From an uncultured Eubacterium sp. (GTDB lineage Bacteria > Bacillota > Clostridia > Peptostreptococcales > Anaerovoracaceae), in NCBI GenBank assembly GCA_947367725.1, contig CANBFZ010000027.1:1-11363 (forward strand): a DNA stretch of 11,363 bases, read 5' to 3'. Numbering within the stretch: position 1 is the first letter of the stretch; the number at the start of each line of letters is the position of its first letter. The position numbers were made by a program, and so were the translations under genes. This document shows positions 1 to 11,363 of the stretch, piece after piece. The notes below the pieces were generated by a model. That model worked only from the letters and a program-made list of their open reading frames with translations, was not told where the DNA came from and made no database searches.

Positions 1-950
1 CCATCTACAGAAACATATTTTCTGATCCCTCTGATTTCTTTAATACTACCAACGGTATAAAGGCTAATCCCTGCTTCTGCAACGATACTTCTGCCCGGTT
101 CAATAACAACTTGCGGTTGCGGCAGGTTACGCGCTGTAAACCACTGCCCAATTCGCTCCATCATCGGTGCAAGGAAATAGCTGTAAGGCGGACGTTTTTC
201 ATCCACATAAGTTACACCAAAGCCACCGCCCAAATTCAGTTCCTTCACGGTCTTACCAAAAGTATCCTGCACCTTTCCTGCAAGTTCCAACAATACTTCC
301 AGCGCCTGCAGATGAGACTCTCGATCCAAAAGCTGGGAGCCAACATGGAAGTGCAGTCCATAAAACTCCACATACGGAGAATCAATCGCTGCTTTGATCT
401 GCGGCATTACGACATCATCATCAAGAGGAATTCCAAATTTAGAATCCTTCTTTCCTGTGACAATATAGTCGTGGCTGCTGCTCTTGACACCTGGCGTAAT
501 GCGGAACAGAATTTTCATTGTCTTGCTCTGTTCCTTGCATATTTCTTCCAACATGGCAAGTTCCTGCAATCCATCCACAATAATTCTGCCGATGCCATAT
601 TCTACTGCCATTTCCAGTTCACTGCGCAGCTTATTGTTGCCGTTAAACTCAATTCGTTCTGCAGGAAATCCTGCTTTGATGGCAGTATAAAGTTCTCCAC
701 CAGACACCACATCTACACACATGTCTTGATTCTTTACAAGTTCTGCCATCGCCAGCGGGAAGAACGCTTTTGCCGCATAAGCCACCCGGGTGCCCGGATA
801 CGCTTCGACAAAATCCCGTCTTAATTCAGCAAATCTGCCCACAATATCGCTTTCAGAGTAGACATACAATGGTGTGTCATACTTCTGCGCAAGCTCTACA
901 GTGCTGCATCCATCAAAATATAAGGTATGCTCTTTGATCTCTTTCACCAT
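1..950 (-). CDS. lysA: Diaminopimelate decarboxylase (LysA), partial at the window edge
   Basis: PLP-dependent decarboxylase that converts meso-diaminopimelate to L-lysine and CO2 in the cytoplasm. About 316 residues are visible; the C-terminal part lies beyond position 1. The fold-type III marks are clear: YAAKA with the Schiff-base lysine at K61, GLHFHVGSQ at 198-206, the phosphate-binding GGGFG at 241-245 and EPGRS at 284-288. HVGSQ with EPGRS fits DAP decarboxylase better than ornithine or arginine decarboxylases. The ATG at 950-948 follows a moderate AGAGG site about 9 nt upstream. It sits 20 nt after the LD-carboxypeptidase gene and is last of the visible minus-strand operon. No other lysine-biosynthesis gene is nearby, so a salvage role, turning DAP from cell-wall peptides into lysine, is possible but inferred. 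The missing end carries further active-site residues that cannot be checked. Confidence 0.92.
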   Translation of the reverse strand, partial: MVKEIKEHTLYFDGCSTVELAQKYDTPLYVYSESDIVGRFAELRRDFVEAYPGTRVAYAAKAFFPLAMAELVKNQDMCVDVVSGGELYTAIKAGFPAERIEFNGNNKLRSELEMAVEYGIGRIIVDGLQELAMLEEICKEQSKTMKILFRITPGVKSSSHDYIVTGKKDSKFGIPLDDDVVMPQIKAAIDSPYVEFYGLHFHVGSQLLDRESHLQALEVLLELAGKVQDTFGKTVKELNLGGGFGVTYVDEKRPPYSYFLAPMMERIGQWFTARNLPQPQVVIEPGRSIVAEAGISLYTVGSIKEIRGIRKYVSVD

Positions 951-970
951 TATCTTGCCTCTCGTTTCTT

Positions 971-1891
971 TTATCTTTCTACCGTAAAGGCAATGCTGCC
1001 TTTTTCGGTATCCATACTGCAAAGGGCGCCCATTGGAAGCGTCATCATCGGCTTTCCATGGCCTGATTGTACATTGTACATCACAGGAATGTCAAGCCCA
1101 TCAAAGACTTCCTTAAGACAGGAAAGTTCTGTATAAGAAGGACATTCCTCATTGACAATTTTCGTAAATTGTCCAAGGATAATCCCCTTGCATGCTACTA
1201 ATTTTCCGGCGTTTCTGAGATGATACGCCCATTTTTCGATTTTTGTCACCGGCTCACATACTTCCTCTATGAACAAGATTTTATCCTTTGTATCCAGTTC
1301 ATACGGTGTGCCGATGCTGGCAGAAAGGAGGGAAAGATTCCCTCCGACCAGTCTGCCTTCTGCCCTACCTGGTTTCATCACACCAATCTCAAATCCTGCA
1401 GGATTTTCAAATGCATAAGTGCCTTCCGCATTCAGTGCCGCAAACAAGGACGTTTTCGACGCCTCATCAAAGCCATCTACCATATTAGAGGACACCATCG
1501 GTCCATGAAACGTCACCAGATCGCACTTCTGATTGATCGCCAAATGTAAGCTAGTTACATCACTGTAGCCAACAAACGCCTTTGGATGTTCTGCAATCAG
1601 ATCAAAATCTATGTACTCCATTGCCCGGCTGCCGCCGTCTCCGCCGCGGACACAGAAAATACCATCCACCGCAGAATCTGCAAACATCTGATTGACCCAC
1701 TGACCACGGATCTGCCCGCTGCCTGCCATATAACCTGCATAATCTGTGTCCAGATTATCTGCCACTTTCACCTGAAATCCCAGATCTTCCACAGCCTTTA
1801 CACACTGTGCAATTCGTGCTGTTTCAATGGCAGAACTGACACAAATCAGTCCAATGGTATCGCCTTGTTTTAATTTCTTTGGGTAACGCAT
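971..1891 (-). CDS. LD-carboxypeptidase, peptidase family S66 (LdcA/MccF type)
   Basis: Cytoplasmic serine carboxypeptidase of family S66. LdcA members remove the terminal D-Ala from murein tetrapeptides at the L-DAP(or L-Lys)-D-Ala bond; MccF members instead cleave microcin C-like adducts. With the chosen start the protein has 306 residues, normal for the family. The N-terminus KLKQGDTIGLICVSS is typical. The catalytic triad is visible: S110 in FVGYSD, E209 in LFIEEVCEP and H278 in QSGHGKP, with spacing close to that of characterised LdcA. The frame stays open to a GTG at 1921, which would overlap spmB by 10 nt, and has an ATG at 1903. I chose the ATG at 1891 because it matches family N-termini and has an AAGGGG upstream, though the 12-nt gap is long. 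Position in an operon with lysA and near D-Ala enzymes favours murein-peptide recycling over microcin immunity. Confidence 0.9.
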   Translation of the reverse strand: MRYPKKLKQGDTIGLICVSSAIETARIAQCVKAVEDLGFQVKVADNLDTDYAGYMAGSGQIRGQWVNQMFADSAVDGIFCVRGGDGGSRAMEYIDFDLIAEHPKAFVGYSDVTSLHLAINQKCDLVTFHGPMVSSNMVDGFDEASKTSLFAALNAEGTYAFENPAGFEIGVMKPGRAEGRLVGGNLSLLSASIGTPYELDTKDKILFIEEVCEPVTKIEKWAYHLRNAGKLVACKGIILGQFTKIVNEECPSYTELSCLKEVFDGLDIPVMYNVQSGHGKPMMTLPMGALCSMDTEKGSIAFTVER

Positions 1892-1911
1892 GTTTACACT
1901 CATCCCCTTGC

Positions 1912-2445
1912 TTAGAACCACATGACATTAACAATCACAGTCGCTGCAATCAGAGATGCAAGGTCGCCTAACAGACCTGCTGCGATGGAATGTCTGGTGT
2001 TGCTGATGCCGACAGAACCAAAGTATACTGCCACTACATAGAATGTCGTTTCCGTAGAACCCAGTGCAACAGAGGCAATTCTACCGATCTGAGACTGTGT
2101 ACCATAAGTTGCTAAAAGATCTGACATCATACCTTCTGCACCGCCGCCGGAGAAAGAACGCATGATTCCCATCGGCAGCACTTCACTCGGCATGCCGATT
2201 AAATTGGTAACCGGAGAAAGAAGGCTGCAGAGCCAATCCATAGCGCCGGAAGCTCTGAACATACCGATAGCACAGAGCATCGCTACCAGATAAGGGATAA
2301 TCATAATTGCTGTAGAAAAACCTTCCTTTGCGCCTTCTGTAAATACAGAATATACAGGCACTTTTTTACAAATCGCGTAAAAGGTTACCAGCGCTACTAC
2401 GACTGGAATCGCCCATACGGAAATCGCTTCTAATACTGCTGTCAT
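1912..2445 (-). CDS. spmB: SpmB-family membrane protein (nucleoside-recognition/Gate domain)
   Basis: Integral membrane protein of 177 residues, the usual SpmB length. Hydrophobic segments lie near residues 8-27, 44-63, 133-147 and 155-175. Family marks are MRSFSGGGAEG at 95-105 and GSTETTFYVVAVYFGSVG at 129-146. In Bacillus subtilis SpmA and SpmB are needed for spore core dehydration and sit in an operon with dacB, a D-Ala carboxypeptidase gene. Homologues also occur in non-sporulating bacteria; E. coli YjiG is an SpmB relative encoded next to the isoaspartyl dipeptidase gene iadA. Its molecular function is not settled. Here it lies 12 nt behind spmA, with an AAGGAGG site overlapping the end of spmA, and just ahead of a murein-peptide carboxypeptidase. 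A role as half of a small-molecule or dipeptide permease is my inference; a sporulation role cannot be excluded. Confidence 0.92.
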   Translation of the reverse strand: MTAVLEAISVWAIPVVVALVTFYAICKKVPVYSVFTEGAKEGFSTAIMIIPYLVAMLCAIGMFRASGAMDWLCSLLSPVTNLIGMPSEVLPMGIMRSFSGGGAEGMMSDLLATYGTQSQIGRIASVALGSTETTFYVVAVYFGSVGISNTRHSIAAGLLGDLASLIAATVIVNVMWF

Positions 2446-2457
2446 CTTCGTACCTCC

Positions 2458-3177
2458 TTAGAAAGAAACTCTTTCGCCATCGTTTGCATTAACGGATCTG
2501 TAATCTTTTGGCAGAACTATCGGGCTGTCTCCGATGTAATCTTCATTGATTTCCAGTCTGCCTGCTGCCATTTCCTTTTCGATTACGTTCTCCCACTTCC
2601 ATTTCTTTACTCTCTGGAACAACAACGTAAATGTAACACCGGTGATGGTAGAAATTGCAGTTGCAATGATAACCGGTGCGATGATTTCTGCAGCGCCCTC
2701 TGTCTGTACCGCAGCACGCAGGCCCATTGCAGTCACCGGAATTAAAGTAATAGAAGTGGTGGAAATTGCCATCAGCATACACTGCGCGTTGGTTGCAATG
2801 CCTTTGGTTGGATTCAATGTCTGCAGTTCTTTCATTGCTTTTAATCCAAATGGGGTTGCCGCATTCCCAATGCCCAGAATATTTGCCGCAAAGTACAGTG
2901 CCATGGCAGAGTTCGCAGGGTGATCTGCCGGAACATCCGGGAACAGAAGTCTCATCACTGGTGCAATGACCTTACCCAGCTTTTCACAGAGTCCCGCTCT
3001 TTCCATCACTTTCATCAGACCGCAGAAGAAAGCCATAACGCCAATCAGACCTAAAGCAATATCAACTGCAGTCTGTGCAAAGTCAAAGATATTATTTAAT
3101 ACCGCTTCAATATTACCAGTCACACCGCCGGCGATGACTGCGATGACAACAAATGCCACCCAAATGTAATTCATCAT
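2458..3177 (-). CDS. spmA: SpmA-family membrane protein (nucleoside-recognition/Gate domain)
   Basis: Integral membrane protein of 239 residues and partner of the downstream SpmB. Hydrophobic segments lie near residues 3-20, 38-56, 91-105, 131-152 and 164-188. The family signature ANILGIGNAATPFGLKAM is at 98-115. It is about 40 residues longer than B. subtilis SpmA, the extra part being a charged C-terminal tail after KKWKW (residues 191-195). The first of two adjacent ATGs (3177) is chosen because an AAGGAGG lies 10 nt upstream. This is the first gene of the spmA-spmB-ldc-lysA operon, and a sigma54 promoter is found about 160 nt upstream. SpmAB are linked to spore maturation in Bacillus; here the setting is peptide and D-amino-acid metabolism, suggesting a transport-related role. 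That reading is inference. Confidence 0.92.
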   Translation of the reverse strand: MMNYIWVAFVVIAVIAGGVTGNIEAVLNNIFDFAQTAVDIALGLIGVMAFFCGLMKVMERAGLCEKLGKVIAPVMRLLFPDVPADHPANSAMALYFAANILGIGNAATPFGLKAMKELQTLNPTKGIATNAQCMLMAISTTSITLIPVTAMGLRAAVQTEGAAEIIAPVIIATAISTITGVTFTLLFQRVKKWKWENVIEKEMAAGRLEINEDYIGDSPIVLPKDYRSVNANDGERVSF

Positions 3178-3333
3178 AATTCAATATCCTCCTTAAAAAA
3201 TTACGTATAGGTTCTACACGATTCTTTATAATTGCGAATTTAATCTTTTATGGTTCAAATCCATCGATCGGTCTGCAGCCCTTCAATAAAACTTTGAACA
3301 AAAAGCTTAAATTGCTTGACGAAAAGTAGTACA

Positions 3334-3348
3334 GCAATATTCATGCCA
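3334..3348 (-). promoter_or_regulatory. Sigma54 (-24/-12) promoter for spmA-spmB-ldc-lysA
   Basis: Read on the minus strand: TGGCATGAATATTGC, followed by T. It matches the TGGCAC-N5-TTGC consensus with one change (C to T) and the invariant 10-nt gap between GG and GC. The predicted start of transcription is near 3322, giving a leader of about 145 nt before spmA. No gene other than the spmA operon lies downstream on this strand. Confidence 0.75.
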
Positions 3349-3349
3349 A

Positions 3350-3385
3350 ATTCATTTCATCTTCCTTTACGCAAATAAAATGAAT
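3350..3385. repeat. Inverted repeat between divergent sigma54 promoters
   Basis: ATTCATTT at 3350-3357 is the exact reverse complement of AAATGAAT at 3378-3385, with a 20-nt spacer. It lies just upstream of the spmA promoter and about 50 nt upstream of the opposing promoter, a position where an activator could serve both. The arms are AT-rich, so chance is possible. The rest of 3178-3502 holds the long spmA leader, the two promoters and no other gene that I can see. Confidence 0.3.
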
Positions 3386-3431
3386 CCATTTACATGTCTG
3401 CCTTCCGTTTATCTGCATAATATATACATGC

Positions 3432-3446
3432 AGGCATGATTTTTGC
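3432..3446 (+). promoter_or_regulatory. Sigma54 promoter for the two-span membrane protein gene
   Basis: AGGCATGATTTTTGC has GG and GC separated by exactly 10 nt, followed by TT. The predicted start of transcription is near 3458, 45 nt before the ATG at 3503. It is almost identical to the promoter at 4180-4194 (one difference in 15). A TATAAT overlaps at 3448-3453, but no good -35 box lies 17 nt upstream of it, so a sigma70-type promoter is the weaker reading. Confidence 0.65.
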
Positions 3447-3502
3447 TTATAATATGTGATAGGAACAAGTTTCCTGCCAAATTTAAAAAAGGAGATTTTC
3501 TC

Positions 3503-3973
3503 ATGCAAGGACATTTTTCGGTCATCAACAAGCGAGGTCTGATCACCGCTTGTATTCTCATCTTTTTCAGCATTCTACTCTTCGCCTTCAGCCTGGCAAA
3601 GCTGGTTGGCGGCGGATCCAGGCTATGGATTGCGCTGCTTGCTTTTGCAGCGTGTTTCTGTCTCATCAGTCTACTGATTCTTCGCGCAGTAGCGACTGCA
3701 GGCGTCGATGTAGAAAATGGTCAAGTTATCTTTGCCAGTACAGACAGCGGCGGTGTACGCGCGCCGCAATTTTCCCTATCTGCATTATCCGCGATTGCGC
3801 TCTGCGGAAACGACGGTCCCTTTGCTAACCCTGAAACCGATTGTCTGCTGGGCGCTAGAGTCGTCTTCACAGCAGATAACCAGCAGCAGTTCGTCTACTA
3901 TCCGGTTGCGATTACATACAAACAATTTGCAAATCTTCGCAACGGACTGTTCCAGTTAAAATCTACGCTATAA
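3503..3973 (+). CDS. Two-span membrane protein of unknown function
   Basis: I do not recognise a named family. The protein has 156 residues: a short basic N-terminus, two hydrophobic segments at about 13-34 and 41-62, then a soluble domain of about 95 residues. The soluble part reads as alternating strands (VDVENGQVIFAS, ARVVFTADNQQQFVYYP) and resembles in outline the PH-like domains that follow a membrane hairpin in other bacterial proteins; this is only a resemblance. The ATG at 3503 has an AAGGAG site 8 nt upstream; an upstream in-frame TTG at 3443 overlaps the promoter and is rejected. The gene stands alone between its own sigma54 promoter and a strong terminator. Promoter likeness to the next gene suggests both belong to the same response. 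Confidence 0.75.
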   Translation: MQGHFSVINKRGLITACILIFFSILLFAFSLAKLVGGGSRLWIALLAFAACFCLISLLILRAVATAGVDVENGQVIFASTDSGGVRAPQFSLSALSAIALCGNDGPFANPETDCLLGARVVFTADNQQQFVYYPVAITYKQFANLRNGLFQLKSTL

Positions 3974-3990
3974 CCTTTCATACGCACTAC

Positions 3991-4051
3991 GGCTTAGTCG
4001 AATGCTGAAAGCGAAAAAAATTTCGTTTTCCTTTCGGCTAAGTCTTTTTTT
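3991..4051 (+). terminator. Rho-independent terminator
   Basis: The outer stem pairs GGCTTAG (3991-3997) with CTAAGTC (4038-4044) with one G-T pair, and an inner arm pairs GAAAGCGAAA with TTTCGTTTTC. A run of seven T follows directly. It begins 17 nt after the stop of the two-span membrane protein gene and separates it from the next transcription unit, which has its own promoter. Confidence 0.8.
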
Positions 4052-4081
4052 ATGATAAAGTCCGTCTAAAATTATGCAATT

Positions 4082-4129
4082 TTGTCCGAAAATCAGGACA
4101 ATAAATCCTATTATCAGGATTAATAGTCC
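4082..4129. promoter_or_regulatory. Phased half-site array, probable enhancer for the sigma54 promoter at 4180
   Basis: Two dyads follow one another: TTGTCC-N8-GGACAA (4082-4101) and AATCCT-N6-AGGATT (4104-4121). The cores alternate TCC, GGA, TCC, GGA, TCC starting at 4085, 4096, 4106, 4117 and 4127, that is every 10-11 nt, so all face one side of the helix. ATCAGGA is repeated exactly 21 nt apart (4092 and 4113). The array centre is about 100 nt upstream of the predicted transcription start, the usual place for an activator site at a sigma54 promoter. Which protein binds is unknown; the activator gene at the right edge is the obvious candidate. Confidence 0.5.
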
Positions 4130-4179
4130 ATATGATCCTTTCGACCGCTTGAACTGGCGATCTTTTCTGCATCATTTTT

Positions 4180-4194
4180 AGGCATGATTCTTGC
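4180..4194 (+). promoter_or_regulatory. Sigma54 promoter for the three-span membrane protein and D-Ala-D-Ala dipeptidase genes
   Basis: AGGCATGATTCTTGC, GG to GC spacing exactly 10 nt, followed by T. The predicted start of transcription is near 4206, leaving a leader of about 100 nt. The upstream terminator at 3991-4051 isolates this unit, and a phased half-site array lies at the expected enhancer distance. Confidence 0.72.
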
Positions 4195-4306
4195 TACTAT
4201 CATCATAGTATAGAACTATATGCGTTTCTGTCAGAAAATAGCACCCCAGCTTTTTTCGCTGCCGCAGAAGCGCCCGCAAGCTACCATCAGGAAAGGAAGT
4301 TTTAAG

Positions 4307-4915
4307 ATGCATAAAATCCAATATCATTATACAAACATTGCGAAGCAGGCTTTTTTCGCTGTATGCTTTCTGTACGTACTGCTGCGCTTTCTGATTATGG
4401 CAGAAATCATTCTGTTTAAAATCGACGGTTACTACCAAGCGACCAATATTCCGTTGACATTGCTGATGTATCTGGCAATTTTTTCGATTCTGATTTTCGC
4501 ATTTCGCGGGCACCGAATCTGTTACAGTACCTACAGCGAAACCCAGCTCACCTATCACAATGCCTTACTTCGGAAAGCTCGCAGTCTGGATTTGAGAGAA
4601 GCAAAGACTGCAGTCTTCGATACCAAAGGCGTCAGCTTTTACAGGACGGCAGACCAAAACTTTGAAGAGGAACCACCGGTATTCTTCCTCCCTTTTTTCC
4701 GGGATGGCATCATTGAAGCCGTACAGATTAACCGGTTTTACAAAATGCTGAAAGAAATGCCCGACATGCGGGTGATCAAGCGATTTCAGGTTTTGCCGGG
4801 CTACAGCAAAAAATGGAACTTTGTGACCATTGCCTACGGTTTTCTTGCCGTTGTAGTATTTATGAGCTGTGCTACCCCGTTGACGCTTTTTATCGTATTG
4901 CTGCAGAATCACTAA
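4307..4915 (+). CDS. Three-span membrane protein of unknown function
   Basis: No family recognised with confidence. The protein has 202 residues. Hydrophobic spans lie near residues 11-36, 49-66 and 173-197, with a soluble region of about 100 residues between the second and third. The soluble region (LTYHNALLRKARSLDLREAKTAVF at 81-104, then KGVSFY) looks like the strand pattern of bacterial PH-like domains, but this is a visual impression. The ATG at 4307 has an AAGGAA site 8 nt upstream; the in-frame ATG at 4220 lacks one and would add 29 residues with no membrane-protein character. It is 14 nt ahead of the VanX-type gene, so the two are surely co-transcribed from the sigma54 promoter at 4180. 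A role in sensing, anchoring or moving D-amino-acid peptides is conceivable but unproven. Confidence 0.78.
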   Translation: MHKIQYHYTNIAKQAFFAVCFLYVLLRFLIMAEIILFKIDGYYQATNIPLTLLMYLAIFSILIFAFRGHRICYSTYSETQLTYHNALLRKARSLDLREAKTAVFDTKGVSFYRTADQNFEEEPPVFFLPFFRDGIIEAVQINRFYKMLKEMPDMRVIKRFQVLPGYSKKWNFVTIAYGFLAVVVFMSCATPLTLFIVLLQNH

Positions 4916-4929
4916 GGGAGGCGGATCTT

Positions 4930-5505
4930 ATGACAATCAGACAATACGGCAATCTGGTGCGTCTGTTAGATTTGGACAAAGAATTCATCATCGATCTGGT
5001 TTATGCTACGCCGAACAATTTTACAGGACACGTCGTATATGATTCTTCCGAATGTTACATCGATATTGACACCGCCAAGCGGCTCATCATTGCCAAAGAC
5101 CTGGCAAAAAAAGACGGCTTTCGGATGAAAGTCTGGGACGCGTTTCGTCCGGTCAGTGCCCAGCAGCGATTCTGGGATCTCTTGCCCGATAACAATTATG
5201 TCGCCTACCCGCCGGATATGGAGACGATTACAGAATTTAAAAACTCTCACATGAACGGACAGTCCGTCGACGTCACGCTAACAGATCAAAGCGGCGAAGA
5301 ACTGTCCATGCCCAGCTGCTTTGATGATTTCACACAAAAAGTCCGCCTGGACTGTCCTGAGACATCCGGCGAGACTCTTCAAAATGCAATCTATTTGCGA
5401 GATATTATGATGCAGGCAGGCTTTACGCCCTACAGCGGCGAATGGTGGCACTTTTATGACCACAATCCAATACCGGTAAGATACACAGAGACTATTCCGA
5501 AATAG
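4930..5505 (+). CDS. ddpX: D-Ala-D-Ala dipeptidase, peptidase family M15D (VanX/DdpX type)
   Basis: Zinc dipeptidase that splits D-alanyl-D-alanine into two D-Ala. The protein has 191 residues, slightly shorter than VanX (about 202). Zinc ligands are H107 and D114 in SHMNGQSVD and H174 in EWWHF; the catalytic base is E171 and the transition-state arginine is R73 in DAFRP. No signal peptide is seen, so it is cytoplasmic. The ATG at 4930 has AGGGAGG 8 nt upstream, right after the stop of the membrane-protein gene. No vanH, vanA or VanRS-type genes are present, so glycopeptide resistance is unlikely; in E. coli the related DdpX serves use of cell-wall D-Ala-D-Ala as nutrient. D-Ala released here could feed the alanine racemase encoded at 7949-9076. 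Its last codons lie inside a palindrome shared with the opposing gene. Confidence 0.93.
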   Translation: MTIRQYGNLVRLLDLDKEFIIDLVYATPNNFTGHVVYDSSECYIDIDTAKRLIIAKDLAKKDGFRMKVWDAFRPVSAQQRFWDLLPDNNYVAYPPDMETITEFKNSHMNGQSVDVTLTDQSGEELSMPSCFDDFTQKVRLDCPETSGETLQNAIYLRDIMMQAGFTPYSGEWWHFYDHNPIPVRYTETIPK

Positions 5506-5512
5506 TCTCTGT
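5485..5512. terminator. Perfect 12-bp palindrome, probable bidirectional terminator
   Basis: ACAGAGACTATT (5485-5496), loop CCGA, AATAGTCTCTGT (5501-5512): all 12 pairs are perfect. It spans the stop codons of two converging genes (TAG at 5503-5505 on plus, TAG at 5494-5492 on minus). The plus side is followed by a moderately T-rich GTATTCGTTT; the minus side has no good T-run, so termination there may be weak. Confidence 0.6.
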
Positions 5513-5665
5513 ATTCGTTTCCGTTTCCGCCTGCGCAGCTTCCATACACGCCTTTGCCTTGGCGCTTTTCTTTTCTAACAAGTTCTGCATCATGCTCTTA
5601 TCATGATTCTTCATGACATAAACAAAGGATGCTACAATAATGGCAATACCAATTATTTTTACCAT
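5492..5665 (-). CDS. Small single-span membrane protein, 57 residues
   Basis: A short gene directly behind the M19 dipeptidase. The protein begins MVKIIGIAIIVASFVYVMKN, one membrane span at about residues 3-18, followed by a charged, lysine-rich then glutamate/threonine-rich tail ending in TETISE. The ATG at 5665 is preceded by GGGAGG at a 9-nt gap, and that site is formed by the last codons and stop of the dipeptidase gene (GGG AGG TAA), so translation is probably coupled. It overlaps the end of the converging D-Ala-D-Ala dipeptidase gene by 14 nt within a palindrome. I know no family for it. It could be a regulator or partner of a membrane transporter or of the dipeptidase; function unknown. 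The clean ribosome site, span and spacing argue that it is real. Confidence 0.7.
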   Translation of the reverse strand: MVKIIGIAIIVASFVYVMKNHDKSMMQNLLEKKSAKAKACMEAAQAETETNTETISE

Positions 5666-5671
5666 AAAAGA

Positions 5672-6622
5672 TTACCTCCCAATGACATCTTTTAGCAGGC
5701 GCAGCGCATTCCCGCAGCAAATCAAATCAATCTCATCATCTGTAAAATGTTTTCCCATAGCGCCGATGAGTCTGCCGAAGCCTGCATAGTTGACCAGTTC
5801 TCCGTTGTCCTCAATGCCGTCAAAATCAGAGCCGAAGCCGATGGCTTCAATCCCTGCCTTATCTTTCATATACAAAAGGTGTTCCACAACCCAGTCAATT
5901 TTCGGTGCTTCTTCATCGTCTTTCAGGAACGGTCCGTTAAAGTTGACGCCGACCATGCCGCCTGCATTACCCAGGGTTTTCAGCTGATCATCGGTCAAAT
6001 TTCTTCTGTGCCCGCACAAAGCTCTGGCACAGGAATGAGAAGCGACAAATGGTTTTTTGCTGTATTTTGCTACATCATAGAATCCGCCCTCGGACAGGTG
6101 TGACGTATCGATGATCATACCCAAACGGTTCATTTCTTCTACCACCTCAATACCAAACGGTTTCAGTCCGCGCAGGTGTTCCTCTTGCGTATCGCTGCTC
6201 GGATAGCCGACAGAATTCTCATAGTTCCAAAGCAGCGTAACCAATCTGACGCCCATGTCATATACTTCGTGGAGCCGTTCCATCTTTCCATCCAGAAATA
6301 CGCCGTCTTCAATGGTTAAAAGAGAAGAAAGCACGTCCTCTTCCTGGTTTTTCAGGATATCACTTACACAATACACCGGTCTGATATGGGCTTTATTTGC
6401 TTCCATGATTGCTTTGTAACGGGCATACATGCTTTTAATAATCTCATAGGAATCCATGGTTTCCATTTCGCTTCTGGAAATGTACATAGCAAAAAACTGT
6501 GCCAGGCAATCATTTTCTTTCAGCAGTTTCAGGTTGATGGAAAGATCTCCATCATAAAAATTCAGTTCCGGTCTTCTCCACGCCTCCAGCAAAGTATCAC
6601 AGTGCATATCTATAATTCTCAT
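5672..6622 (-). CDS. Dipeptidase, peptidase family M19 (membrane/renal dipeptidase type)
   Basis: Binuclear zinc dipeptidase of the amidohydrolase superfamily. M19 enzymes hydrolyse dipeptides and, unusually, accept a D-amino acid at the C-terminal position (L-D dipeptides). The protein has 316 residues. Metal ligands and active-site residues are visible: H7 and D9 in DMHCD, E105 in TIEDG (bridging ligand), H175 in DTSH, H196 in ASHS and D266 in GSDFDG. No signal peptide is seen. The ATG at 6622 is chosen because GGAGG lies 8 nt upstream; longer in-frame starts would overlap that site or the promoter. It is the first gene of a minus-strand unit driven by a sigma54 promoter at 6680-6666. In this setting likely substrates are L-D dipeptides from peptidoglycan stems; the exact substrate is not readable. 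Confidence 0.92.
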   Translation of the reverse strand: MRIIDMHCDTLLEAWRRPELNFYDGDLSINLKLLKENDCLAQFFAMYISRSEMETMDSYEIIKSMYARYKAIMEANKAHIRPVYCVSDILKNQEEDVLSSLLTIEDGVFLDGKMERLHEVYDMGVRLVTLLWNYENSVGYPSSDTQEEHLRGLKPFGIEVVEEMNRLGMIIDTSHLSEGGFYDVAKYSKKPFVASHSCARALCGHRRNLTDDQLKTLGNAGGMVGVNFNGPFLKDDEEAPKIDWVVEHLLYMKDKAGIEAIGFGSDFDGIEDNGELVNYAGFGRLIGAMGKHFTDDEIDLICCGNALRLLKDVIGR

Positions 6623-6665
6623 TTTTTCATCCTCCATTTTGTATCTATGATATGCTATATTAAAA

Positions 6666-6680
6666 GCAAATATTGTGCCA
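6666..6680 (-). promoter_or_regulatory. Sigma54 promoter for the M19 dipeptidase unit
   Basis: Read on the minus strand: TGGCACAATATTTGC, then T. It fits the TGGCAC-N5-TTGC consensus at every defined base. The predicted start of transcription is near 6654, 32 nt before the ATG at 6622. This is the best sigma54 match in the window. Confidence 0.85.
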
Positions 6681-6691
6681 CTTTTACATAT

Positions 6692-6706
6692 CGGCACAAG
6701 TCTTGC
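6692..6706 (+). promoter_or_regulatory. Sigma54 promoter for the M20 amidohydrolase and alanine racemase genes
   Basis: CGGCACAAGTCTTGC, then A; only the first base departs from TGGCAC-N5-TTGC. The predicted start of transcription is near 6718, about 32 nt before the ATG at 6750. It stands back to back with the minus-strand promoter at 6680-6666, the two -24 boxes being only 11 nt apart. Confidence 0.82.
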
Positions 6707-6749
6707 ATTACATTAGTAGTAGAACAGAACATTGACAACGGAGGTTTTC

Positions 6750-7955
6750 ATGAATTATACCATAGAAGAAATCAAAAATAAAGTAGATGCCGTTTATGAT
6801 ACGGTCGTTTCTATGCGCCGTCATCTACATATGTACCCAGAACTTTCCGAGGAAGAATGCGAAACCAGCCGCTTTATCTGCCAGCAGCTGGATCTTTTAG
6901 GCATCCCTTACGAAAAGGATATTGCAGGCCACGGCATCAGCGCCGTGATCTATGGAAAAAACCGCGCCCACGGTGTGGGACTACGGGCTGACATGGACGC
7001 CCTGCCCATAGAAGAAAAGGTTGAAATCCCATTTAAATCGAAAAATCCTAATATTATGCACGCCTGTGGTCATGATATTCACACAGCAATCCTGCTGGGC
7101 GCAGCAAAAATTTTAAACGAAATGAAAGACGATCTGCCCGGTTCGGTCCGCTTATTCTTCCAGCCTTCAGAAGAAACCATCGGCGGCGCAAGGCAGATGA
7201 TCGAAGCAGGCTGTCTGACATCGCCGGCGATTTCCAGCGTGCTGGGACTTCACGTAGATTCGTCCACCGATGCGGGCAGCGTTGAACTGATTCCAGGTGC
7301 GATGAATGCCGCTTGCTGCGAGTTCACCGTCGTTGTCACAGGAAAAGCCTGTCACGGCGCCCATCCCAATGACGGGATCGATGCACTGCTGCCTGCCTGC
7401 ACCATGGTTTCCAGTCTGCAGTCCATCATCACAAGAAGAATTGACCCGGCAGAATCCGTGCTGATTACTGTGGGAAAATTCAACAGCGGTACCAAAGAAA
7501 ATATCGTATCCGGCGAAGCCGTCTTCTCCGGCACCATGCGCGCCTTAGATATGAGAAACATGGACAAATTAAAAACCTATCTGACAGACCTTTGCAAAAG
7601 CACCGCTGCTGCTTACGGTGCTTCCTGTAGCATAAGCTTTTCTGGCAGTTATCCCACCTTGGAAAATGATCCGAAGTTGTTTGACATCGTCATGAAAACC
7701 GCCAAAGCAGTGCTGGGCGATACACACGTCAAACTGACGGTAAAGCCAAGCCTTGGTGCTGACGATTTTGCGTTTTTCTGCCATGAAAGCCGCGGACTCT
7801 ACTATAACATCGGCTGTAGAAAACCCGGCGAAACAGACGCCTACCCGATTCACAGCGAGCTGTTCTGTCCAGATGAATCCTGCATCCGCACCGGGATACT
7901 CACCCAAGTCGCTTCTGTACTGCACATCCTAAAGGAGGAAGAAAAAACATGGTAA
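6750..7955 (+). CDS. M20D-family amidohydrolase (N-acyl-amino acid or peptide hydrolase)
   Basis: Zinc-dependent amidohydrolase of peptidase family M20, subfamily D, which includes hippurate hydrolase, aminoacylases, IAA-amino acid hydrolases and N-acetyl-diaminopimelate deacetylase. The protein has 401 residues, normal for the family. Visible marks are GLRADMDALP at 77-86, the metal ligands C106 and H108 in HACGHD, the catalytic E141 and ligand E142 in QPSEE, H168 in GLHVD and H368 in IHSE; the dimerisation-domain region follows between about 190 and 300. The ATG at 6750 has GGAGG 5 nt upstream; an in-frame TTG at 6732 precedes that site and is rejected. It overlaps the racemase gene by 7 nt, so the two are translationally linked. 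The substrate is uncertain: an acylated or DAP-containing peptide would suit the neighbours. Confidence 0.9.
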   Translation: MNYTIEEIKNKVDAVYDTVVSMRRHLHMYPELSEEECETSRFICQQLDLLGIPYEKDIAGHGISAVIYGKNRAHGVGLRADMDALPIEEKVEIPFKSKNPNIMHACGHDIHTAILLGAAKILNEMKDDLPGSVRLFFQPSEETIGGARQMIEAGCLTSPAISSVLGLHVDSSTDAGSVELIPGAMNAACCEFTVVVTGKACHGAHPNDGIDALLPACTMVSSLQSIITRRIDPAESVLITVGKFNSGTKENIVSGEAVFSGTMRALDMRNMDKLKTYLTDLCKSTAAAYGASCSISFSGSYPTLENDPKLFDIVMKTAKAVLGDTHVKLTVKPSLGADDFAFFCHESRGLYYNIGCRKPGETDAYPIHSELFCPDESCIRTGILTQVASVLHILKEEEKTW

Positions 7956-9076
7956 ATGCCACACCAGAAATTCTGCGCGACACCAAGATTGTCGTAGACC
8001 TTGGAAAAATCGCCTATAACATGTCAAAAATTCGCGAAATGGTTGGACCACAAACAGAGGTTATGCCCGTGATCAAAGCCAACGGCTACGGTCACGGCGC
8101 TCTCGCCATCGCACCAACTTTGATAAAAAACGGCGCAGCAGCCCTGGCTGTCGCCACCCTTACAGAAGCGCTGGAGCTGAAAGACGCGTATCCGGATTAT
8201 CCGGTGCTGATCATGGGGCATACGCCGAACCGGCTTCTGCATCACGTTGTAGCGCGGGATATCATACAGACCATCTGGTCCATCGAACAGGCAGAAATGC
8301 TGGGTTCCCTGGCTGCTTCCCTGCAGAAAAATGCCCGCGTCCATATCAAAGTAGATACAGGTTTTCACCGTCTGGGAAAAGCCCCTTCTGATGCGTTCGC
8401 AGCAGAAATCTGCCGCATGTTCAATGTGGCCCATCTCTGCGTAGAAGGCATCTTCAGCCATCTTGCCCTGGCAGGCACAGAAGCTGACGAAATCCAGTAT
8501 CAGCAGTTTCTCCACTTTGTCCAGAAGCTGGAGGGGCTTGGCTGCCGTTTTCGCTATCAGCATATTGCAGATAGTATTGCCTGTGTAGACTATCCCCGCT
8601 ACAGAATGAATCTCGTTCGACCTGGCGCCTTGCTCTACGGCATGAAGAGCGCTCAGTTCGGCGACCTGCCTGTGGTTCAGGCACTGACATTTCAAACAGC
8701 AATTTCTCAGCTGCACCAAGTTGCAGCAGGAGAGGGACTCAGCTACGACTATCTTTGGAAAGCAAAGCGGGACAGCATCATTGCCACCCTGCCGTTCGGC
8801 TATGCGGACGGCTATCCGCGCAATCTCAGAGAGAAGGGATATGTCATCATCAATGGCGTAAAAGCGCCGATCGTCGGCGTCATCTGCATGGATCAGTGCA
8901 TGGCGGATGTGACCGACGTTCCAGATGTATGCTGCGGCACAGAAGCCATCATCTACGGAGACGGCCACGATGGTTCCATGACCATCGAAGAAGCAGCCTC
9001 CCTTGCAGGCACGAACAAAAATGATATCATCGCCCGCCTGACCGCAAGACCGCCGCGGGTTTATATCGGCGAATAA
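7949..9076 (+). CDS. alr: Alanine racemase
   Basis: PLP enzyme interconverting L- and D-alanine. The protein has 375 residues, the normal length. PLP-binding K43 lies in VIKANGYGHG, the second catalytic residue Y266 in GLSYDY, R141 in VDTGFHRLG, and the ICMDQ (residues 312-316) and PFGYADGYPR (282-291) segments are typical. The ATG at 7949 overlaps the end of the amidohydrolase gene (ATGGTAA) and has AAAGGAGG 10 nt upstream. Placed behind a peptidase and with D-Ala-releasing enzymes nearby, it probably runs in the catabolic direction (D-Ala to L-Ala), like DadX, while a separate biosynthetic racemase may exist elsewhere. The residue aligned by eye to the substrate-pocket Tyr354 of the Geobacillus enzyme appears to be A366, so broader substrate use cannot be ruled out. 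Confidence 0.93.
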   Translation: MVNATPEILRDTKIVVDLGKIAYNMSKIREMVGPQTEVMPVIKANGYGHGALAIAPTLIKNGAAALAVATLTEALELKDAYPDYPVLIMGHTPNRLLHHVVARDIIQTIWSIEQAEMLGSLAASLQKNARVHIKVDTGFHRLGKAPSDAFAAEICRMFNVAHLCVEGIFSHLALAGTEADEIQYQQFLHFVQKLEGLGCRFRYQHIADSIACVDYPRYRMNLVRPGALLYGMKSAQFGDLPVVQALTFQTAISQLHQVAAGEGLSYDYLWKAKRDSIIATLPFGYADGYPRNLREKGYVIINGVKAPIVGVICMDQCMADVTDVPDVCCGTEAIIYGDGHDGSMTIEEAASLAGTNKNDIIARLTARPPRVYIGE

Positions 9077-9086
9077 ACTTGCCCAC

Positions 9087-9133
9087 GAAAAAAGCGTTTC
9101 CGTTGCTCTATTCTTTTTCGGAAACGCTTTTTC
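9087..9133 (+). terminator. Strong terminator after alr, probably bidirectional
   Basis: GCGTTTCCG (9094-9102) pairs with CGGAAACGC (9119-9127), extended by the flanking A-run and T-run to about 14 pairs, with a loop of about 16 nt. TTTTTCTTTTATT follows on the plus strand, 10 nt after the alr stop region. On the minus strand the stem is followed by six T, so it may also stop transcripts from dppA. Confidence 0.85.
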
Positions 9134-9201
9134 TTTTATTACAGCAACGTTTTCCAAACGCAAACAGGATTCCAAATCGGAGAACGGCCTGTTCACACTT
9201 G

Positions 9202-9224
9202 GCGTAAAAGCTGCGAGCTTACGC
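9202..9224. other. Hairpin downstream of dppA
   Basis: GCGTAA (9202-9207) and GCT (9210-9212) pair with AGC and TTACGC (9216-9224), leaving two bulged A and a GCG loop. It lies 12 nt past the dppA stop on the minus strand. No T-run follows on either strand, so it is a weak terminator at best; it may protect the mRNA 3' end. Confidence 0.3.
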
Positions 9225-9235
9225 TTGTGCCCCGC

Positions 9236-10069
9236 TTAGAAAAGCGGATTGTAGAAGTCACTACCAGCGCCAAACACAATCTGCCGCAGCGCCATCAACG
9301 CATCCATATTTTCAGCGCCGATGCCTACTGTCATCGAATCGATTCGTTTTGTCCCCGGTACACGCATAGCGCCGTCAGCCAGATTGACCTGCTGAAAGGT
9401 GACTTTCATTTCCGGATTTGCAGGTACGGCTACTGGTTTTCTTTCCTTTGCCGCACGCACTGCTTTTTCTGCCGTATCGCGCAGCATGCGCTGCGTCGTC
9501 GTTCTCGGCAGACAGTTTGCACAGAATCTGCCCTCCGCGTACTTCACAATCACAGTTTCTACCTCTGGATCAAAGGCTTTTGCCTCAGCAGAAAGCGCCT
9601 GATCCCCAGTTGCCATCAGAAGCGGCACGCCTTTTTCTGCAGCAAAAAGGGCGTTCATGCCCAGTTCTCCCACACTGACACCCGCTACCGATAAATCCCG
9701 AATGGTAGTCGGATTAAAGGTATGGTCTAAAATTGCATGTTGTGTTCCGAATTTGGCGTGATATCCTACCAGAATCAACCCGTCGAACGATGCATCCAGA
9801 CCATGCACCATGGAGTTTCTGCGTGTATCGCCGCGCAAAAGCTGCGCTCTTTCATCCAGAAGTTCCATCTTGATATTTTGAGAAATGTTATGCGAATCAC
9901 AGACGACAACTTCTGTCGCACCGCCTGCAAAAGCGCCGTCTATCACTGCATTGACTTCTTCCGTCATAAAAATGCGCGCCTGCTGATACCCAGCGCCCAC
10001 CTCTTCTACGTCTTCTGGCGCTGCAATCCCATTGATGCCTTCTAAATCTGCTGAAATAAAAATCTTCAT
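9236..10069 (-). CDS. dppA: D-aminopeptidase, peptidase family M55 (DppA type)
   Basis: Zinc-dependent aminopeptidase that removes N-terminal D-amino acids, best on short peptides such as D-Ala-D-Ala; the Bacillus subtilis enzyme forms a ring-like decamer and is encoded with a dipeptide transporter. The protein has 277 residues, close to the family norm. The signature SADLEG gives ligands D8 and E10; H60 in DSHN and H104 in GYHAKFGT match the Bacillus positions exactly, and E135 in GELGMNA matches the last ligand shifted by two. H116 in DHTFN is another likely active-site residue. No signal peptide is seen, so it is cytoplasmic. The ATG at 10069 has GGAGG 8 nt upstream. It lies 14 nt behind the sigma54 activator gene and is probably co-transcribed with it. 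No Dpp transporter genes are in the window. Confidence 0.93.
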   Translation of the reverse strand: MKIFISADLEGINGIAAPEDVEEVGAGYQQARIFMTEEVNAVIDGAFAGGATEVVVCDSHNISQNIKMELLDERAQLLRGDTRRNSMVHGLDASFDGLILVGYHAKFGTQHAILDHTFNPTTIRDLSVAGVSVGELGMNALFAAEKGVPLLMATGDQALSAEAKAFDPEVETVIVKYAEGRFCANCLPRTTTQRMLRDTAEKAVRAAKERKPVAVPANPEMKVTFQQVNLADGAMRVPGTKRIDSMTVGIGAENMDALMALRQIVFGAGSDFYNPLF

Positions 10070-10083
10070 ACTTACTTCCTCCG

Positions 10084-11363
10084 TTAATATTTTATATGAT
10101 ATCTCTTTAGTTTGTCGTAAAATACAGTTCTGGACATATCCAGTTCTTCCATAGCTGCCTGTTTATCCCCGTTATACTTCAGCAAGGTCATTTCCAAAAT
10201 GCGGGCTTCCTCTTTCGCCAGCATCTCTTTCATGGTCACCGGAATATTACCTTTGCCGATGCGCAAATGCTCCGAATAAATAATATTGGACTCACACAAG
10301 GTAATGGCGCGCTCTATGGCATTTTCCAGTTCGCGCACGTTACCTGGCCAGTTATAGGAGATTAGCTTCTGCAGCGCCTCCCCAGAAAACTGTTTCTGTG
10401 GCAGTCCGTACATTTCGCAAATCTGCCCCAAAAGCTGATTGATCAGCAAATATAAATCCGCCTTACGTTCCCTAAGCGGTGGAATTTCAATGGGAAACAC
10501 ATTAATTCGGTAAAATAGGTCCTGCCGAAACCGCCCCTGTGCCACCTCTTCCTCCAGATTTCTGTTGGTCGCAGCAATGACCCGCACATCCACCTTGATG
10601 GGTTTAGAGGAACCCACCCGGTAAATGGTTTTGTTCTGGAGCACATGCAGCAGCTTCACCTGAATGTCCAGCGGAATTTCACCGATTTCATCCAGAAAAA
10701 TCGTTCCTTGGTTGGCAGCCTCAAAGAAACCGATCTTCCCCTCGTTCTTTGCACCAGTGAAAGCGCCGCCTACATAGCCGAACAATTCACTTTCAAAAAG
10801 TGTCGGCGCAATTGCGTTGCAATTCACTTCCACAAAAGGCGCCTGCGGCATGCCGATGTTGTGAATTTCCCGCGCCAGTTTTGATTTCCCCGTGCCGCTC
10901 TCTCCGGTGAGAATCACATTAAACCGGCTGTTGGCAGCTTTCCACGCCAGATATTTCACTTCTCGCGCTTTGACACTCTTTCCGGCAAACCCTGAAAACG
11001 CATCCTCTGGATAGTCAAGCCCTGCGGTTTCTGCCGCCGTGTTATGTTCTTCTATCTGCTGTATGATGTCGTTGCGATCACTGAGCATAGATTCCAAATG
11101 TGATGCATCCCGCAGCAATAGAAATACGCCGCCTCCTTCTGAAAGTTCTTCTGCACTCCACTTGACAATACTGCAGTCGAAAGGTCTTCGATTGATTTCG
11201 AACAGACGGTTTCGCACCGACGCCTCTTTCCCGTCCAGCACCGCATGCATGCTTTCCGCAAGGGGCATTCCGCTGAACAGGTCGCTGAAATCCTGCCCTG
11301 TGACATCGACGTCCATATCCTCTGTTGTCTTTTCTCTGTAAGGCGCACCTCGCATCAGTTCGC
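10084..11363 (-). CDS. Sigma54-dependent transcriptional activator (PAS-AAA+-Fis HTH), N-terminus beyond window
   Basis: Enhancer-binding protein that remodels sigma54 RNA polymerase. The frame is open to the right edge, so the true start is outside; residue numbers here count from the ATG at 11355, which is internal. Residues 1-90 look like a PAS-type sensor region (ending in GVFLLLRDASHLE). The AAA+ domain follows: Walker A GESGTGKS at 151-158, the sigma54-contacting GAFTGA at 197-202, Walker B TIFLDEIG at 218-225, the arginine-finger region RFRQDLFYRINVFP at 275-288 and WPGNVREL at 336-343. A Fis-type helix-turn-helix ends the protein (about 385-423, GDKQAAMEELDMSRTVFYDK). There is no receiver domain in the visible part, so it probably senses a small ligand or protein partner. 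It precedes dppA and is the natural activator of the five sigma54 promoters in this locus, which is inference. Confidence 0.93.
   Translation of the reverse strand, partial: ELMRGAPYREKTTEDMDVDVTGQDFSDLFSGMPLAESMHAVLDGKEASVRNRLFEINRRPFDCSIVKWSAEELSEGGGVFLLLRDASHLESMLSDRNDIIQQIEEHNTAAETAGLDYPEDAFSGFAGKSVKAREVKYLAWKAANSRFNVILTGESGTGKSKLAREIHNIGMPQAPFVEVNCNAIAPTLFESELFGYVGGAFTGAKNEGKIGFFEAANQGTIFLDEIGEIPLDIQVKLLHVLQNKTIYRVGSSKPIKVDVRVIAATNRNLEEEVAQGRFRQDLFYRINVFPIEIPPLRERKADLYLLINQLLGQICEMYGLPQKQFSGEALQKLISYNWPGNVRELENAIERAITLCESNIIYSEHLRIGKGNIPVTMKEMLAKEEARILEMTLLKYNGDKQAAMEELDMSRTVFYDKLKRYHIKY

Follow-up and report, generated by a model that had tools for sequence, protein, structure and literature searches.

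The window, the entire stretch of 11,363 bases analysed here, is one whole contig (C27) of a metagenome-assembled Emergencia genome (2.12 Mb in 360 contigs, 73.6 % complete), whose closest named relatives belong to Emergencia (Anaerovoracaceae, Peptostreptococcales in the NCBI placement). It carries twelve genes, seven on the minus strand (lysA, S66, spmB-like, spmA-like, M19, M55 and the activator gene) and five on the plus strand (mem1, mem2, vanX-like, M20D and alr), and the contig ends truncate lysA on one side and the activator gene on the opposite side. Sequence comparisons suggest that the locus is probably a regulon, controlled by sigma54 and a dedicated enhancer-binding protein (EBP), which uses murein stem peptides as an amino acid source and converts diaminopimelate (DAP) to lysine. 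Protein families were assigned with Pfam and NCBIfam models on the window proteins, while the window had no Rfam match at gathering thresholds and no tRNA by ARAGORN. G000 denotes the window's own genome, other G numbers denote related genomes and L numbers the stretches compared. The following features could be distinguished:

3..950, minus strand: lysA, diaminopimelate decarboxylase, C-terminus cut by the contig end (Orn_Arg_deC_N; TIGR01048, 295.2 bits)
971..1891, minus strand: S66 LD-carboxypeptidase of the LdcA/YkfA/MccF family (Pfam S66 N and C domains; GYSD, EE, SGH)
1912..2445, minus strand: SpmB-like Gate membrane protein (Pfam Gate; NF007811, PRK10519, 38.5 bits, cut-off 111; order-wide profile search)
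2458..3177, minus strand: SpmA-like Gate membrane protein (Pfam Gate; synteny)
3333..3348, minus strand: sigma54 promoter of spmA-spmB-S66(-lysA) (0 mismatches; conserved)
3432..3447, plus strand: sigma54 promoter of mem1 (1 mismatch, first base; conserved)
3503..3973, plus strand: mem1, unnamed membrane protein with two transmembrane-like segments (hydropathy; alignment with relatives; no Pfam or NCBIfam match)
4084..4099, no strand assigned: dyad 1 of the putative EBP enhancer, GTCC-N8-GGAC (dyad comparison, matrix scan)
4105..4120, no strand assigned: dyad 2 of the putative EBP enhancer, ATCC-N8-GGAT, 21 bp past dyad 1 (tandem score 34.6)
4180..4195, plus strand: sigma54 promoter of mem2-vanX (1 mismatch, first base; conserved)
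4307..4915, plus strand: mem2, unnamed membrane protein with three transmembrane-like segments (hydropathy; no Pfam or NCBIfam match; profile search)
4930..5505, plus strand: VanX/DdpX-type D-Ala-D-Ala dipeptidase, M15D (Pfam M15; SHxxGxxxD, EWWH and DAFRP aligned with 1r44)
5672..6622, minus strand: M19 membrane-dipeptidase family enzyme (Pfam M19, 283 bits; renal dipeptidase structures)
6665..6680, minus strand: sigma54 promoter of M19 (0 mismatches; conserved)
6692..6707, plus strand: sigma54 promoter of M20D-alr (1 mismatch, first base; conserved)
6750..7955, plus strand: M20D amidohydrolase (TIGR01891, 336 bits; HACGHD in alignment)
7949..9076, plus strand: alr2, second alanine racemase (TIGR00492, 286 bits, above cut-off)
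9236..10069, minus strand: M55 D-aminopeptidase, DppA-like (Pfam M55, 303 bits; DppA structure 1hi9, 144 bits)
10084..11361, minus strand: sigma54 activator (EBP), N-terminus cut by the contig end (Sigma54_activat, AAA+; Fis-type HTH_8)

The seven enzymes of D-peptide or related metabolism that the sequence-only reading had recognised are all present by family, and catalytic-site motifs could be recognised against PDB relatives for M20D, S66, VanX, M19 and M55. Strict motif patterns missed 4 of 13 VanX, 2 of 35 M20D and some of the 46 S66 relatives; those of the missed proteins that were re-read (four VanX, two M20D and five S66) were found to keep the key residues, with small changes. The models for narrower functions are matched more distantly, with the VanX-type protein not reaching the cut-off of the NCBIfam VanX equivalog (65.6 bits; cut-off 320) and the M55 enzyme scoring 199.6 bits against a cut-off of 430 in the DppA model. 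The best NCBIfam match of Alr2 is the VanT catalytic-subunit model (293 bits; cut-off 460), and in eleven relatives this second racemase was found alongside a stronger alr located elsewhere. Orthologues of the M55 enzyme (77-89 % identity) occur in just four of the twelve other Emergencia genomes searched, and it is therefore an optional member. Jointly, the S66, VanX-type, M55, M19, M20D and Alr2 enzymes would be able to cover most stem-peptide bonds. No NlpC/P60 gamma-D-Glu-diamino-acid endopeptidase occurs among the window proteins or the Pfam-scanned neighbours, the remaining neighbours and the genomes not being searched, and the gamma-D-Glu-DAP bond thus forms a gap in the enzyme set. Since hydrolases of N-acyl-amino acids and of N-acetyl-DAP are known in the M20D family, the M20D protein is, as a guess, the likeliest candidate for splitting this bond. 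The window LysA scores slightly under the TIGR01048 cut-off of 297.9 bits because the contig end truncates its gene, while three full-length relatives reach 443-467 bits (443 for the L032 copy). The DAP-decarboxylase signature CE[ST]GD was found in 33/33 aligned LysA proteins, three of which carry it as CCETGD.

Hydropathy scans predicted membrane segments in SpmA, SpmB, mem1 and mem2, and in none of the window enzymes. Three unnamed membrane proteins had been proposed for the locus; two were found, mem1 and mem2, which lack Pfam and NCBIfam matches and show no detectable kinship to each other (hhalign probability 0.5 %). A profile of mem2 had matches in 29 of the 393 genomes of the order, 27 of these from the window's family and two from another family, while the SpmB profile had matches in 171 of the same 393 genomes. 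Among the SpmB matches listed, 40 places score above 300 bits (this cluster type) and 27 at ~241-273 bits (other families), followed by lower scores; also among the matches listed, SpmB of the cluster type reaches 303-342 bits, against 138-154 bits for the other copy in G020, G233, G250 and G290. The cluster pair of G233 shares 32 % and 36 % identity with the other SpmA/SpmB pair of that genome. The SpmAB of the sequence-only reading is thus present as a Gate-family pair which, as judged from these scores and identities, is a paralogue separate from canonical SpmAB, and the low-scoring tier presumably represents the sporulation copy. The other SpmAB of G233 (L134) was considered as a dacB-linked control and discarded, as the neighbour tested is an EPSP synthase. 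A Gate pair beside a peptidase also occurs in Escherichia coli, where the SpmB/SpmA-like YjiG/YjiH adjoin the isoaspartyl dipeptidase IadA; the peptidase differs, however, and the window protein falls well short of the PRK10519 cut-off given above.

The gene set proved to be conserved in related genomes, so that the lack of conservation named in the sequence-only reading as grounds for refutation was not observed, with its order reshuffled across Emergencia and the family and with a compact operon in other families. Within the genus, BLAST matches at 1e-10 were counted anywhere in the stretches from twelve Emergencia genomes (G003, for which there is no stretch, was not counted): Alr occurs in 12, S66, SpmA, SpmB and LysA in 11 each, M20D, M19, VanX and mem2 in 10 each, dapF in 8 and mem1 in 7. 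The gene order of the window is kept in Emergencia sp. 1XD21-10 (L032) and shuffled elsewhere in the genus. In 20 stretches taken around mem2-profile matches, the core seen most often has mem2 and spmA-spmB-S66 facing each other, in many cases separated by sigma54 sites. Nineteen of the 27 SpmB places at ~241-273 bits were taken as the sample of other families, and many of these hold compact operons of lysA, spmA, spmB, S66 and M20D, often adjoining an EBP gene (SpmB in 19; SpmA and S66 in 18 each; M20D in 15; LysA in 12; this activator type in 10). S66 was present in 11/12, 16/16 and 18/19 of the genomes counted in the three groups. An enolase-superfamily protein, absent from the window, is encoded in five of the nineteen other-family stretches (L116, L117, L121, L123 and L135; in L121 beyond the activator), and the single one compared gave a full-length match to the Bacillus subtilis L-Ala-D/L-Glu epimerase (YkfB-like; 385 bits to 1jpm). 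A 363-residue neighbour in L119, taken for an epimerase from its length, is instead an HD-type protein. In G006 (L091:10585-18893), a paralogous spmAB-S66-mem2 cluster adjoins a five-gene run, four members of which are by Pfam an oligopeptide-binding protein, two permeases and an ATPase, with a sigma54 site of its own at 18878; the presence of this oligopeptide ABC transporter fits peptide uptake. In L092, a paralogous spmAB-S66 cluster occurs with a binding-protein gene and, farther on, a cut M18 aminopeptidase gene. The window's own genome holds a second mem2/spmA/spmB/S66 cluster (L090, C20, 8813-11937) in which the activator is of the other type (EBP2, 58 %) and a sigma54 site lies at 9642. 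S66 genes also occur in L052:10476-13688, where the genes for a transglutaminase-core protein, S66 and a beta-lactamase-fold protein come after a sigma54 site, and in L105:3838-7901, where a similar transglutaminase-core protein is found with S58, S66 and an Asp/Glu racemase.

Using the sigma54 consensus TGGCAYN5TTGCW with at most one mismatch as the strict limit, exactly five sites could be found in the window, the number of promoters reported earlier, against 1.25 expected; one of 200 shuffles reached five. With two mismatches the count (22 sites against 15.8 expected; reached in 18/200 shuffles) is not above chance. All five sites are intergenic and each is directed at a gene, and in an alignment with two related Emergencia each of them is retained, differing by no more than one base, whereas the DNA around them has drifted in large part. 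Correctly oriented strict sites no more than 250 bp ahead of a cluster gene make up 39/42 in the twelve Emergencia stretches, 33/40 in sixteen stretches of the window's family and a second family, 5/6 in three second-cluster stretches and 8/11 in the nineteen other-family stretches, whereas the motif read backwards gave 1, 2, 0 and 1 sites in the four groups, none of them upstream (L051, L052 with three sites and L105 with no site are left out of this count). A strict site precedes lysA in six of twelve other-family cases. Genome-wide, G000 holds 14 exact TGGCACN5TTGCW sites and 124 at no more than one mismatch, where the reversed pattern gives 28, so that sigma54 seems to be much used in this genome. 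The 147 nt spmA leader (3178-3324) shows block-wise conservation and folds better than shuffles (z -3.0; 0/200). The mem2-vanX leader is partly conserved and capable of forming hairpins (window 4205-4306, z -2.2; L032:8561-8641, z -4.2; L045:9086-9169, z -1.6), and in the window and L032 a dyad TACTAT-N4-ATAGTA directly follows the -12 box; these hairpins and the dyad possibly provide a second layer of control.

The sigma54 activator is present as reported, if truncated by the contig end, and among the matches listed, those with 500 or more aligned residues, 24 relatives of it are co-linear over the full length, including the sensor half, at 39-92 % identity across 605 or more residues. No inverted repeats with arms of at least six bases are common to the promoters. 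Four-base arms on the other-family operons led to the proposed enhancer, in the form of repeated dyads GTTC-N8-GAAC ahead of the lysA promoters. In Emergencia the dyad mostly reads RTCC-N8-GGAY and occurs twice ahead of mem2, at a spacing of 21 bp, and the general form would be two dyads RTYC-N8-GRAY, 20-21 bp apart. A matrix built from 14 sites, with the window left out and close relatives included, gave the window tandem (4084-4120) its score of 34.6, where the best of 40 shuffles scored 14.6. This tandem stands ahead of mem2/spmA, and in several relatives the enhancer stands ahead of lysA/dapF. In a scan of 53 stretches (939,095 bases), the 46 outside the training set yielded 24 matches scoring at least 16, 22 of these no more than 450 bp upstream of a cluster gene, while with the limit lowered to 14, shuffles of all 53 stretches yielded 2.2 matches. 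The enhancer stands at a cluster gene in 20/28 stretches with the EBP-type activator (15/23 untrained) and in 5/20 without a visible activator (L047, L095, L103, L108 and L124); the five stretches with another activator type (L057, L090, L096 and the Clostridioides difficile-type L114 and L115) have none at all. A second enhancer precedes dapF-lysA or lysA in L049, L093, L100 and L107, and lysA is thereby tied to the same activator; in L118, L119, L123 and L126, lysA is preceded by one enhancer. The RTYC-N8-GRAY tandem is, on this distribution, the likely binding site of the activator. Upstream of the activator gene, a 137-residue protein that may resemble DUF3842 is encoded in L032:230-643 and L045:16365-16778, and two proteins adjoining the activator in L118, considered as cyanophycin-type, are ValS and FolC instead.

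In the scheme proposed for the locus, the families, motifs, promoter- and enhancer-like sites and conservation are computed, and the substrates, order of steps, inducer and transport are what we infer. The dedicated activator would sense a signal, presumably muropeptide-derived, via its N-terminal half, bind the tandem dyad enhancer and open the sigma54 promoters. As the enzymes lack predicted membrane segments, they should work inside the cell on imported peptides, with the SpmA/SpmB-like Gate pair as the likely membrane carrier. The S66 enzyme would take D-Ala off the tetrapeptide, the VanX-type and M55 enzymes would cleave D-Ala-D-Ala and D-aminoacyl peptides, and M19 and M20D would cleave the L-Ala/D-Glu/DAP links. 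Alr2 would convert D-Ala to L-Ala, and LysA meso-DAP to lysine, which may be fermented through lysine 2,3-aminomutase (KamA); KamA is above its cut-off in 11/13 Emergencia, and DAP-derived lysine could therefore be fermented. Of the catabolic locus for D-amino-acid and murein peptides proposed in the sequence-only reading, the joint locus and its regulation are supported by the conserved gene set, the sigma54 sites and the enhancer. The murein substrate is indicated indirectly, by the LysA signature and the epimerase-like gene of some relatives, and a purely catabolic role is weakened by LysA being mostly a lone copy with dapF nearby.

Several observations weigh against murein-peptide catabolism under a single activator. 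No RTYC-N8-GRAY tandem occurs near the M19 and M20D promoters of the window, the proposed enhancer lying ~2.5 kb off, and no nearby site ties these promoters to the activator; they would be served either by this activator from a distance or by another one. Among the untrained stretches with the EBP-type activator, 8/23 have no cluster gene with an enhancer (L056, L098, L104, L120, L121, L129, L133 and L135), and the same holds for 15/20 stretches without a visible activator. Neither G000 (74 % complete) nor G005, likewise incomplete, has KamA above cut-off. The NCBIfam epimerase models are the best or among the matches of the enolase-superfamily protein and yet fall below their cut-offs (271-280 against 500 for NF041118), so that its epimerase specificity is presumptive. 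LysA is the sole TIGR01048 match in 11/12 other-family genomes with a clustered lysA, exactly one copy is above cut-off in 10/13 Emergencia, dapF is adjacent to lysA or one open frame away in eight stretches (L045, L047, L048, L049, L054, L055, L056 and L057), and dapB is present in 12/13 Emergencia. Considering that LysA is mostly the lone strong copy and that dapB is so widely present, the cluster LysA probably also serves lysine biosynthesis. These same counts, together with enzymes that lack membrane segments, agree with a recycling of the cell's own wall in which LysA and DapF are biosynthetic and the EBP couples murein turnover to lysine demand. Such recycling, which is compatible with the use of stem peptides and differs in the source of the peptides, is possible, if less than probable, for a full set of D-specific peptidases under sigma54 with a second Alr looks catabolic, and an Opp-type peptide importer adjoins a paralogous cluster. 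Furthermore, the lysA found in this cluster in G010, G012 and G281 is of another type, sharing 38-40 % identity with that of L032, and is still preceded by a sigma54 site of its own, in G010 and G281 also by the enhancer; G010, although 99 % complete and without a dapB match, keeps dapF-lysA behind the enhancer and sigma54 site.

The use of D-amino-acid peptides from any source, murein not being specific, is in keeping with the broad specificity of the M19, M55 and M20D families and with the scattered occurrence of the M55 orthologues in the genus. It is nonetheless unlikely, as the substrate of LysA is DAP, which is known in peptides essentially from murein only, as L-Ala-D/L-Glu epimerase-like genes occur in relatives, and as S66 is near constant in the genomes counted. 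A small chance is given to M20D, dapF and lysA forming the end of the acetylase branch of lysine biosynthesis, in which the N-acetyl-DAP deacetylase is an M20D enzyme: DapH is above cut-off in 12/15 genomes tested outside Emergencia but in only 3/12 Emergencia, and seven of the nine Emergencia genomes without it, six of the nine being at least 98 % complete, still carry the cluster M20D, which in this genus is therefore not simply the deacetylase of that branch. This explanation would also leave S66, VanX, M19, M55 and Alr2 unaccounted for. A sporulation or spore-cortex locus, as the SpmA/SpmB similarity and a SpoIIGA gene ~2 kb past the lysA end in L055 might indicate, is very improbable in view of the divergence of the two pairs in G233 and of the sigma54 sites, EBP enhancer and D-peptide enzymes. 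It is scarcely credible that the VanX-type motifs and the VanT-like racemase mark a remnant of glycopeptide resistance (van), as both proteins fall far below the cut-offs of the VanX and VanT models, the window proteins include no ligase, vanH or vanRS (the rest of the genome not being searched) and the gene set is common to the genus.

The locus would work like the B. subtilis YkfABCD/Dpp route (PMC2954226), in that it has S66 (YkfA) and a DppA-type M55 enzyme, with an epimerase-like gene (YkfB) in some relatives and an oligopeptide ABC transporter beside the paralogous cluster. It differs in that no YkfC-type NlpC/P60 enzyme was seen among the proteins tested, and goes beyond that route with LysA, DapF, M20D, M19, the VanX-type enzyme, Alr2, the Gate pair, two unnamed membrane proteins, sigma54 sites and a dedicated EBP. 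Its LysA would add a DAP-to-lysine step. For B. subtilis, the permease importing free stem peptides was described as unidentified (PMC2954226). Among the openly licensed papers searched, the sigma54 operons that come nearest to the locus are two small C. difficile operons, CD2699-CD2697 (membrane proteins and a peptidase, with EBP CD2700; sigL-mutant values of 0.03 to 0.09) and CD2862-CD2860 (a dipeptidase and membrane proteins, with EBP CD2863) (PMC7438776, PMC9130780). Two genomes carrying the CD2699 promoter sequence (L114/L115) share with the window a sigma54 promoter, membrane proteins adjoining an M20D peptidase and a neighbouring EBP. They differ in the type of EBP (33 % to EBP2), in the M20D (29 %), in having one membrane protein that is weakly SpmB-like (31-36 % over 87-99 residues) and a second without clear similarity, and in lacking S66, LysA, VanX or Alr alongside and the RTYC-N8-GRAY tandem. 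The 39 Clostridiales EBP regulons of PMC6615313 likewise have the EBP gene beside its target, multiple upstream sites and a -24/-12 promoter, and the XcyR and YpdR groups are labelled peptide degradation. Unlike the present locus, the groups in Table 1 of its main text include no lysA, spmAB, LD-carboxypeptidase, D-Ala-D-Ala dipeptidase or alanine racemase, and the words lysine and diaminopimelate are absent from that main text. Elsewhere, D-alanyl-D-alanine dipeptidase is among the COGs enriched under sigma54 (PMC12316311), and in Bacillus thuringiensis lysine 2,3-aminomutase is under sigma54/KamR control and the sigL list includes a diaminopimelate decarboxylase gene with a poor promoter match (PMC4428206). 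No publication combining LD-carboxypeptidase, spore maturation protein and diaminopimelate decarboxylase was found among the openly licensed (CC0/CC BY/CC BY-SA) literature. As far as that literature goes, the regulon appears to be undescribed.

In the gut and in sediments, dead bacteria supply D-amino acids and DAP in large amounts, and which organisms consume them is not well known. A more far-reaching proposal, speculative and rather doubtful at present, is that the Gate pair carries murein peptides or D-alanine, that the same activity explains the sporulation SpmAB, which in B. subtilis is encoded beside the spore D,D-carboxypeptidase DacB, and that the regulon is a widespread sigma54 module by which amino-acid-fermenting Clostridia eat the wall peptides of other bacteria, with a catabolic LysA feeding DAP into lysine fermentation. 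With a single type of activator, a single predicted DNA site, few genes and, in most copies, a Gate pair, a regulon of this kind would allow the question of who consumes these compounds to be tested, and SpmAB-like proteins gain a concrete candidate role. If true, the regulon would add one more activator group to those catalogued for the Clostridiales.

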